Below, in pieces: positions 16,928 to 19,115 of a stretch of 64,000 nucleotides of DNA. The position numbers and the translations under genes were made by a program. The stretch is from Streptomyces alanosinicus (GTDB lineage Bacteria > Actinomycetota > Actinomycetes > Streptomycetales > Streptomycetaceae): the NCBI RefSeq assembly GCF_014650595.1, contig NZ_BMVG01000013.1, positions 62,001 to 126,000 of the forward strand, read 5' to 3'. The notes below the pieces were generated by a model. That model did no database searches. It was not told where the DNA came from and worked only from the letters and a program-made list of their open reading frames with translations. How positions within the stretch are numbered: position 1 is the stretch's first letter; every line of letters begins with the position of its first letter.

Positions 16928-17788
16928 TCAGGACAGCTGGAGAAGTCCACGGAGCAGGTCCCGGCTCTCATCGGGTCCCGGGCTGTCCTGCTGGAGTTCC
17001 TTCAGCGCCTGCTCGTACTGGGCGACGTCCTCGCGTTTGTCCAGGTAGAGGGCGCTGCTGAGCTGCTCCATATAGACGACGTCGGACAGATCGGCGTCGG
17101 GGAAGCTGAGGATGGTGAAGGCGCCGCTCTCGCCGGAGTGCCCGCCGAAGCCGAACGGCATGATCTGCAGCCGTACGTTGGGCCGCTCGGAGACCTCGAT
17201 GAGGTGCTGGAGCTGGCCGCGCATCACCTCGCGGTCACCATAGGGGCGGCGCAGGGCGGCCTCGTCGAGGACGAAGTGGAATTCGGAGGCGCCGCCCGCG
17301 AGCAGGTGCCGCTGCCGCTCCAGCCGCAGCGCGACCCGGCGCTCGACGTCGGCCGGGCTCGCGCCCTTCATACCGCGCCGGACCACCGCGCGGGCGTACT
17401 CCTCGGTCTGGAGCAGGCCGTGGACGAACTGGACCTCATAGACACGGATGAGGGACGCGGCGCCCTCCAGGCCCACGTAGGTGGGGAACCAGCTGGGCAG
17501 GACGTCCGTGTAGCTGTGCCACCAGCCGGCCACATTGGCTTCCCGGGCCAGGGAGAGCAGCGACTCGCGCTCCACGTCGTCGGTGATGCCGTACAGCGTC
17601 AGCAGGTCCTCGACGTCTCTGGTCTTGAAGCTCACCCGGCCCAGCTCCATCCGGCTGATCTTCGATTCGGAGGCGCGGATCGAGTAACCCGCCGCCTCGC
17701 GCGTGATCCCCCGTGCTTCACGCAGTCGCCTGAGTTGCGAGCCGAGCAGCATCCGCCGCACCACCGATCCGGGCTCTCCCGCGCTCAC
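16928..17788 (-). CDS. XRE-family regulator with DUF5753 (WhiJ-like)
   Basis: 286-residue regulator. N-terminal helix-turn-helix (LLGSQLRRLREARGITREAAGY, about residues 13-65) is followed by a DUF5753 domain of about 180 residues (VYEVQFVHGLLQTEEYARAV, QLQHLIEVSERPNVRLQIMPF). The GTG start VSAGEPGSVV has GGAGG ten bases upstream; an in-frame start six codons earlier exists. It belongs to the streptomycete WhiJ-type systems pairing an XRE regulator with a small DUF397 protein and an RsbW-like ATPase, both found just downstream in this window. Probable role in developmental or metabolic gene control. Confidence 0.93.
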   Translation of the reverse strand: MSAGEPGSVVRRMLLGSQLRRLREARGITREAAGYSIRASESKISRMELGRVSFKTRDVEDLLTLYGITDDVERESLLSLAREANVAGWWHSYTDVLPSWFPTYVGLEGAASLIRVYEVQFVHGLLQTEEYARAVVRRGMKGASPADVERRVALRLERQRHLLAGGASEFHFVLDEAALRRPYGDREVMRGQLQHLIEVSERPNVRLQIMPFGFGGHSGESGAFTILSFPDADLSDVVYMEQLSSALYLDKREDVAQYEQALKELQQDSPGPDESRDLLRGLLQLS

Positions 17789-17994
17789 GTTCGCCAGCCT
17801 CCCCAACCGTCTTCAGGGCCCGCAGTCTGCCACTAAAACACTTCGAGCAGTACTCGTCCGGTTACGGAAACGGAAAGAGGTGAGCCGTTTCTGCCTGGTG
17901 TGGTCGGGAAGAGGTCAGGACCACTGGCGGCAAAGGCAGAGAAGATGGCGGAAAAAATGGCCAAGAAGCGGTACGGTCAGGGCCATTTCGGTCG

Positions 17995-18023
17995 CGTGCA
18001 CGTGCATCTGCCCTTGCATCTGC
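17995..18023 (+). promoter_or_regulatory. 29-bp conserved promoter motif, copy A (upstream of ATPase gene)
   Basis: Begins CGTGCACGTGCAT and ends GCATCTGC, containing two direct copies of GCATCTGC at 12-bp spacing. It matches copy B (19087-19115, opposite strand) at 25 of 29 positions. A -10-like AACCAT follows 13 nt later, the same spacing as in copy B. The rest of the spacer 17789-18096 holds no supportable gene. Confidence 0.65.
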
Positions 18024-18096
18024 TCTGCGCATCGGAAACCATGGTGCCGCGCCACCGCTGCATCGCAACGACCGCGAATTCCCGGGAGTGCCTCGC

Positions 18097-18591
18097 ATGG
18101 GGACGAATGGATCGACCATGCTCAAGCCGTTACGGCAGGGCCTTCCGCCGTTGGATCCCGCAGCCGTGTCCGATGCCGCCTCCTGCGCCCTGCCCGCCCG
18201 TTACGAGGCGGTGCGCGAGGCCCGGCACTTCACCCGCGACACCCTCGACAAGTGGGACGTCGGCGACCGCTTCGACGACACATGCCTCGTCGTCTCCGAA
18301 CTCGTCACCAACGCCCTGCGCCATGCGGTGCCGGCCGACCCGGGATGCGCCGAACACGCCGCGCCCGTACGGCTGGATCTGATGCGCTGGACCGAGCGGC
18401 TGGTGTGCGCGGTGCGCGACCCGAGCCAGGAGACGCCGGCGCCGCGCGACTCGGACGACTTCTCGGCCGAGTCCGGTCGCGGGCTGTTCCTGGTCGACTC
18501 CTTCGCCGACAGCTGGGGCTGGCACCCCCTCGGAGGCACCCTCGACGGCAAGGTCGTCTGGGCGCTGTTCCGGCTCCGGCCGACCGGATGA
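18097..18591 (+). CDS. RsbW-like ATP-binding protein (HATPase_c_2)
   Basis: 164-residue single-domain ATPase of the anti-sigma-factor/histidine-kinase type. The N-box is VVSELVTNALRHA, and the G1-type motif is SGRGLFLVDSFADSWGWHP. Proteins of this kind (AbaA-type) accompany XRE/DUF397 pairs in Streptomyces and may act as anti-sigma or protein-kinase partners. Start MGTNGSTM chosen by homology memory; another ATG lies three codons upstream. Divergent from the XRE gene, with conserved motif copy A in its upstream region. Confidence 0.88.
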   Translation: MGTNGSTMLKPLRQGLPPLDPAAVSDAASCALPARYEAVREARHFTRDTLDKWDVGDRFDDTCLVVSELVTNALRHAVPADPGCAEHAAPVRLDLMRWTERLVCAVRDPSQETPAPRDSDDFSAESGRGLFLVDSFADSWGWHPLGGTLDGKVVWALFRLRPTG

Positions 18592-18653
18592 CACGGAGCA
18601 GCACCGACGAGCGCCCGGTTTCTACGCGCGTCGCTCCGCCTCTTCCGCCGCCC

Positions 18654-18698
18654 GATTCCCTCGCATCCGATTCCCTCGCATCCGATTCCCTCGCATCC
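18654..18698. repeat. 15-bp tandem repeat, three perfect copies
   Basis: Unit GATTCCCTCGCATCC three times in a row, between the convergent ATPase and DUF397 genes. It may contribute to termination or be a slippage product. Confidence 0.85.
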
Positions 18699-18735
18699 GA
18701 CATCGTTGCCACCGGGGGCCCGCCCCGCCCGGACG

Positions 18736-19005
18736 TCAGCCGACGATCAGGTGGTCGAACTCGCCGTCCTTGATGCCGAGCAGCATGGCCTCGATCTCCG
18801 CGCGCGTGTAGACGAGCGCCGGACCGTCCGGAAAGCGTGAGTTGCGTACGGCGACCTCACCGCCCGGCAACCGGGCGAACTCCACGCAGGAGCCCTGCGA
18901 GTTGCTGTGCCTGCTCTTCTGCCAGGCCACTCCGACCAGCTGCGCGGCAGCCATGCCGTTGTACACGTCGTACCCCCCGTACACGCCGTCAACGTCGTGG
19001 TCCAC
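18736..19005 (-). CDS. DUF397 small regulatory protein
   Basis: 89-residue protein with the complete DUF397 pattern: WQKSRHSNSQGSCVEFA, VAVRNSRFPDGPALVY and the C-terminal GEFDHLIVG. DUF397 proteins partner XRE/DUF5753 regulators in Streptomyces (WhiJ/BldB-associated families). The GTG start has GGGAG eight bases upstream; an internal Met18 is an alternative. Its promoter region carries motif copy B and a TATGAT -10. Confidence 0.92.
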   Translation of the reverse strand: MDHDVDGVYGGYDVYNGMAAAQLVGVAWQKSRHSNSQGSCVEFARLPGGEVAVRNSRFPDGPALVYTRAEIEAMLLGIKDGEFDHLIVG

Positions 19006-19067
19006 AGGTCGCTCCCCGGTGGTGCACTGGCTGATGTGGCCATAGATGCTGTGGTCAACTGACCCGG

Positions 19068-19115
19068 ATCATAACCCCGTTCACGTGCAGATGCTTGAGC
19101 AAATGCACGTGCACG
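19068..19115 (-). promoter_or_regulatory. DUF397 promoter: conserved motif copy B plus -10 TATGAT
   Basis: On the minus strand the 29-bp motif (19115-19087) shares CGTGCACGTGCAT and GCATCTGC with copy A and ends 13 nt before TATGAT (19073-19068). It therefore covers the -35 region, the position of an activator site or of a specialised sigma-factor element. Confidence 0.65.

Follow-up and report, generated by a model that had tools for sequence, protein, structure and literature searches.

The locus and its two promoter elements

We analyzed a 64,000-nucleotide stretch of the Streptomyces alanosinicus genome (contig NZ_BMVG01000013.1, positions 62,001 to 126,000; "the window" below) for a 29-bp element that is present in two copies, A and B, one upstream of an ATPase gene and the other upstream of a DUF397 gene. 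Pfam matches showed that genes for an XRE/DUF5753 protein, a HATPase_c protein, and a DUF397 protein are adjacent here, which is the gene set of a WhiJ/AbaA/BldB-type locus and agrees with an earlier assignment of the region from its letters alone (the sequence-only reading). The features are listed in window coordinates; the 80 orthologue loci used for comparison are all from Streptomyces and are the best 80 of at least 548 confirmed.

16928..17806, minus strand: XRE HTH_31 plus DUF5753 regulator, a WhiJ paralogue of the SCO3421 type (Pfam PF13560, 1.2e-15; PF19054, 2.3e-60), the proposed binder of copies A and B
17995..18023, plus strand: putative operator copy A, before the ATPase gene, CGTGCACGTGCATCTGCCCTTGCATCTGC (pair match, genome pattern search, 80 orthologue loci)
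18014..18019, plus strand: TTGCAT at the -35 position, within the proximal half-site of copy A, with a 17-bp spacer to 18037
18037..18042, plus strand: -10-like hexamer AACCAT of the putative ATPase promoter, 13 nt past the proximal unit (same distance in 77/80 loci)
18118..18591, plus strand: HATPase_c_2 anti-sigma-like gene of the AbaA and SCO3423 type (Pfam PF13581, 1.2e-14, scored on the longer frame 18088-18591)
18736..19005, minus strand: DUF397 gene, a BldB paralogue of the SCO3424 type (Pfam PF04149, 1.3e-18)
19068..19073, minus strand: -10 hexamer TATGAT of the putative DUF397 promoter, 13 nt past the proximal unit (TATGAT in 80/80 loci)
19087..19115, minus strand: putative operator copy B, before the DUF397 gene, CGTGCACGTGCATTTGCTCAAGCATCTGC (pair match, genome pattern search, 80 orthologue loci)

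Copies A and B are identical at 25 of 29 bases, and each contains two GCATCTGC-type units 12 bp apart, so that direct repeats with a 12-bp period lie in the intergenic regions beside a whiJ paralogue, as in a WhiJ-type operator. When the two upstream regions were compared 29-mer by 29-mer, the highest match was 25, and among 1000 Markov-shuffled pairs it was 23 (0/1000 reached 25). In the 10,243,143-base genome, copies A and B are the only two sequences that match the strict pattern TGCATNTGCN4GCATNTGC perfectly; at two mismatches the pattern is at background level, with 38 genome matches versus 93 for the reversed control. The conserved element extends further upstream, and TGCACGTGCA is its most conserved part (the core). 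The likeness of the two copies, the 12-bp repeats, and the 13-nt distance to a -10 hexamer, all of which had been claimed in the sequence-only reading, were confirmed, with the qualification that the AACCAT of copy A is poor by the -10 consensus though kept in 77 of 80 loci.

Several features connect this locus with the SCO3421-SCO3424 region of Streptomyces coelicolor. Codon 5 of the ATPase gene (18130-18132) is the leucine codon TTA, as it is in 78 of 80 orthologues; a TTA-containing SCO3423 next to SCO3421 is described in the accessible part of a review (PMC4255298), and an AbaA-like gene with a TTA codon beside a WhiJ paralogue is the arrangement of the SCO3421-3424 orthologue group. The sigma-E site published for SCO3424, as given in the accessible part of its source (PMC6767563), was matched at 28 of 29 bases in L056 and L095, two of the orthologue loci, and this match links the locus to SCO3421-SCO3424. 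The site lies at L056:2238, L095:2194, L059:2242, and L010:2554, and in L056 its start precedes the copy-B GCAT unit by 93 bp. At 27 or more of 29 bases it was not found in the window's own locus, and it may therefore be a lineage-specific second promoter of the SCO3424-type gene. Between the convergent ATPase and DUF397 genes (18660-18700), a 15-bp unit of the CTCGCATCCGATTCC type is present in three tandem copies.

Conservation within Streptomyces

An exact match to GTGCATNTGCN4GCATNTGC was present in 201 of 295 Streptomyces genomes, and the reversed pattern was present in 12. The XRE orthologue was found in all 30 loci fetched from these genus-wide exact matches, and among the 94 genomes with no exact match, three (G107, G173, and G192) have orthologue loci (L146, L152, and L148, respectively) that contain imperfect copies. 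In the 80 orthologue loci, copy A or B or a close variant stands at both promoters without exception, a result opposite to the absence from orthologous promoters that the sequence-only reading had named as the finding that would count against it. Scored against 19 fixed bases, the ATPase promoter showed no mismatch in 67 loci, one mismatch in 6, and one extra spacer base in 7. The DUF397 promoter had 0, 1, 2, 3, and 4 mismatches in 25, 26, 22, 6, and 1 of the 80 loci, respectively; the reversed consensus came no closer than 6 (A) or 5 (B) mismatches.

The variation in copy B is largely modular. The distance from the start of its core to TATGAT is 39 nt in 66 loci, 51 in 6, 63 in 1, 40 in 4, and 41 in 3, which means that whole 12-bp units have been gained or lost (39, 51, or 63 nt in 73/80) and that whole-unit insertions are present in 7 of 80 copy-B promoters. 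TTGCATC is found at the proximal unit of copy A in all 80 loci. Copy B has no -35 sequence above background (2/6 or fewer matches) in 70 of 80 loci, together with the invariant TATGAT.

The core and the recognition helix in other actinomycete families

Relatives of the XRE protein were found in 67 of 197 genomes in a class-wide search. The pattern TGCACGTGCAN7TTGCANNTGC at up to one mismatch matched 36 of these 197 genomes, and its reversed control matched about 20, so that weight can be placed only on perfect and XRE-adjacent matches. All 19 perfect matches lie within 2.6 kb of an XRE match among those listed; of the 27 one-mismatch matches, 14 lie that close and 13 do not; this count of adjacency used 50 XRE hits, among the matches listed class-wide.

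Loci for the comparison of gene order (29, mostly from outside Streptomyces) and for the helix comparison were picked by hand from the class-wide matches and are not a random sample. At least four gene orders were present among the 29. The ATPase gene had the core directly before it in 11 loci and the DUF397 gene in 16; in 23 loci one or both genes had it. A CATGAT-like hexamer follows the core at 30 to 32 nt in several non-Streptomyces families; in L181, L182, L187, and L249 it faces away from the DUF397 gene, and assignment of the core to that gene is there by position only. An extra core is present elsewhere in the stretch in L171, L186, and L218.

The recognition helix of the window's XRE protein is IRASESKISRMELGRV, and the corresponding helix, IR(A/S/G)SESKISR(M/L)ELGRV, is nearly conserved among proteins that are as a whole only about 47 to 63% identical to the window's protein. 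No solved structure matching the XRE or DUF397 protein by sequence was found. With loci classified by whether at least 14 of 19 helix residues were alike (after removal of the duplicates L188 and L135 and of L137, which has no HTH domain), an exact core was present within 1.7 kb of the XRE gene in 53 of 69 loci with the helix and in 0 of 31 loci without it; among proteins at 45 to 65% identity the counts were 37/53 and 0/6. In a comparison with 60 permuted 10-bp palindromes, TGCACGTGCA occurred in 54 of 100 loci and the runner-up in 8.

In family f17 (loci L211-L213, L223, and L224 of genomes G445, G377, G310, and G427), several XRE paralogues per genome have a related helix and an adjacent TGCACGTGCA core. 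Cross-regulation between such loci is possible, since the paralogues of one genome have related helices as well as the core.

The linked XRE/DUF5753 protein as the probable binder

We consider it probable, at roughly 0.85, that copies A and B are operators of the linked WhiJ-type XRE/DUF5753 protein of the SCO3421 type rather than a class of sigma-factor promoters. The confinement of the element to one locus in this genome, its presence at both promoters of all 80 orthologue loci, the co-occurrence of helix and core, and the persistence of the core across different gene orders together make this protein a well-supported candidate binder, as far as comparative sequence evidence can do so. The sequence-only reading had offered either the XRE/DUF5753 protein or a dedicated sigma factor, and it is the first of these that gained comparative support; no further promoters of this type were found in the genome to sustain the second.

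We infer from sequence that the XRE protein binds both copies. Helix IRASESKISRMELGRV would read the core TGCACGTGCA and then the 12-bp direct-repeat units (TGCATCTGC type) over the -35 region, and a single XRE protein would set the transcription of both the AbaA-like, anti-sigma-like ATPase gene and the BldB-like DUF397 gene. By analogy with WhiJ/SCO4542 and BldB, the DUF397 product may in turn modulate the XRE protein. Protein bound at the site could either replace a missing -35 contact, which would activate transcription, or block the -35 region, which would repress it. Activation, to which we give about an even chance, is slightly favored by the lack of a -35 sequence above background in copy B beside its invariant TATGAT and by the activation of iosA by WhiJ9. 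Repression seems somewhat less likely than activation, and a dual role combining the two seems unlikely. Activators that bind direct repeats in place of a -35 sequence, such as PhoB at the pho box and the SARP proteins at their sites, have tandem repeats that end about 8 to 13 nt before the -10 hexamer; these belong to other protein families, and their repeats have a period of 11 bp rather than 12 bp.

Several observations, along with the frequent matches of the reversed control in the class-wide search, weigh against this interpretation or parts of it. Helix and operator share a common ancestry, and the loci in which they occur together are therefore not independent cases, which inflates the figures for their correlation. 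Sixteen of the 69 loci with the helix have no exact core near the XRE gene, although some of these stretches are short or contain several XRE genes. Among the 29 loci examined for gene order, 3 (L175, L183, and L219) have the core beside the XRE start only, and an exact core was not found in 3 others (L172, L184, and L185), of which L172 has imperfect copies only. In six loci of family f18 the presumed DUF397 -10 hexamer follows the core at 13 nt rather than about 30 nt, a spacing that suits repression better than activation there. The TTCGAAT repeat of a paralogous locus, L112, was not found in the L118 stretch even though the helix of L118 is nearly the same as that of L112, which argues against a simple helix-operator code.

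It is improbable that the element is bound by a regulator encoded elsewhere, such as another WhiJ paralogue. The genome has 28 DUF5753 loci from which such a protein could come, and loss of BldB acts in trans on abaA paralogues in Streptomyces venezuelae, according to the accessible part of one study (PMC10294661). However, BldB is described there as having no DNA binding, and the core is tied across families to loci with the IR(A/S/G)SESKISR-type helix, and none of the genome's other 27 DUF5753 loci has it.

A dedicated sigma factor that takes the element as its -35 sequence, with the ATPase and DUF397 genes as its regulon, is very improbable. The regular distances to the -10 hexamer (13 nt in Streptomyces) or to the CATGAT-like hexamer in other families would suit such a factor, as would the anti-sigma-like character of the ATPase. 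However, the -10 hexamers of A and B are unlike each other, the 12-bp units come and go, the f18 core lies at a different distance, Pfam scanning of six neighboring proteins found no sigma gene, and the core is lacking from the other 27 DUF5753 loci. Our reason for setting the sigma factor aside is that perfect sites occur at a single locus of the genome, whereas a sigma class would be recognized by the sharing of both boxes among several promoters. That the likeness of A and B is due to chance or to a functionless local duplication is hardly credible, for while a rough estimate makes one such pair conceivable in the whole GC-rich window, the shuffled pairs, the conservation at 80 of 80 loci, and the occurrence in other families already contradict it.

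Paralogous loci and the WhiJ9 system

The sequence-only reading had expected a genome-wide motif search to uncover other XRE/DUF397/ATPase loci, and this expectation failed in S. alanosinicus, where the closest paralogue examined has a different repeat. That locus, L112, encodes an XRE protein that is 42 to 43% identical and has the helix LRVAPATVRRME, and its own 12-bp direct repeat, TTCGAATNNNTCTTCGAAT, lies between the XRE gene and a divergent ATPase gene (G000:C1:95899-95917). A TTCGAATNNNTCTTCGAAT-type pattern at up to one mismatch was present in 34 of 150 genomes (a count made with no reversed control), and in all 12 loci fetched from the 35 matches, L112 included, the repeat has this same placement. 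When the regions upstream of the 28 DUF5753 genes were scanned for tandem repeats, three were conspicuous (the present locus, L112, and L115, the last with a GC-rich repeat) and the other 25 were at chance level, so that private operators are not established for all paralogues.

Direct-repeat operators of WhiJ paralogues are already known from WhiJ9 of S. venezuelae, which, in the accessible part of the published account, binds to three direct repeats within the iosA-whiJ9 intergenic region, activates iosA, and mildly represses itself (PMC10294661). The same text reports that BldB loss strongly raises abaA paralogues. The two systems share a WhiJ-type regulator set with a DUF397 gene and intergenic direct repeats, all three of which fall within 34-bp oligonucleotides in the WhiJ9 case. 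They differ in the repeat (CGxxCTCAAC for WhiJ9, the TGCATCTGC type here), in its placement (113 bp upstream of the iosA start rather than over the -35 region), and in the target, as iosA is not an abaA paralogue; a second copy before the DUF397 gene was not met in that part of the WhiJ9 account (PMC10294661). A search for WhiJ9 repeats at an assumed 12-bp period matched 16 of 150 genomes; 10 loci were fetched from the 18 matches, and a homologue of the L112 XRE protein was present in none of them, which means that the period of the WhiJ9 repeat was not confirmed. A type II toxin-antitoxin role, which would require the DUF397 protein to be toxic alone, has been proposed for XRE/DUF397 pairs; for the paralogous pair SCO4441/4442, overexpression was not deleterious, according to the accessible part of one report (PMC6262351).

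The putative operator described here, its conservation, and its pairing with a helix were not found in the literature searched, which left bioRxiv and most subscription papers (including the 2010 whiJ paper) outside. No operator of a WhiJ protein was found in the accessible literature on SCO3421/SCO3423/SCO3424, and a literature search with the motif letters gave, among the matches listed, none on actinomycetes by title. In its accessible part, a 2013 review states that the targets of WhiJ itself were entirely unknown (PMC4255298).

Implications for the WhiJ family

It is possible, at somewhat less than even odds, that the WhiJ paralogues of one Streptomyces genome have private direct-repeat operators that track their helices and act as insulated switches, and that several actinomycete families and, outside Streptomyces, several loci per genome share a single old specificity (helix IRASESKISR, core TGCACGTGCA), with cross-talk between the paralogues of such a genome. 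WhiJ paralogues are abundant in Streptomyces and are linked to development and antibiotic production, and WhiJ9 is the sole WhiJ-type case with a mapped site found in the literature searched. With the operators proposed here, the targets of one member of this poorly understood family of developmental regulators become testable, and the pairing of helix and operator would offer a route to predicting the targets of other WhiJ paralogues.
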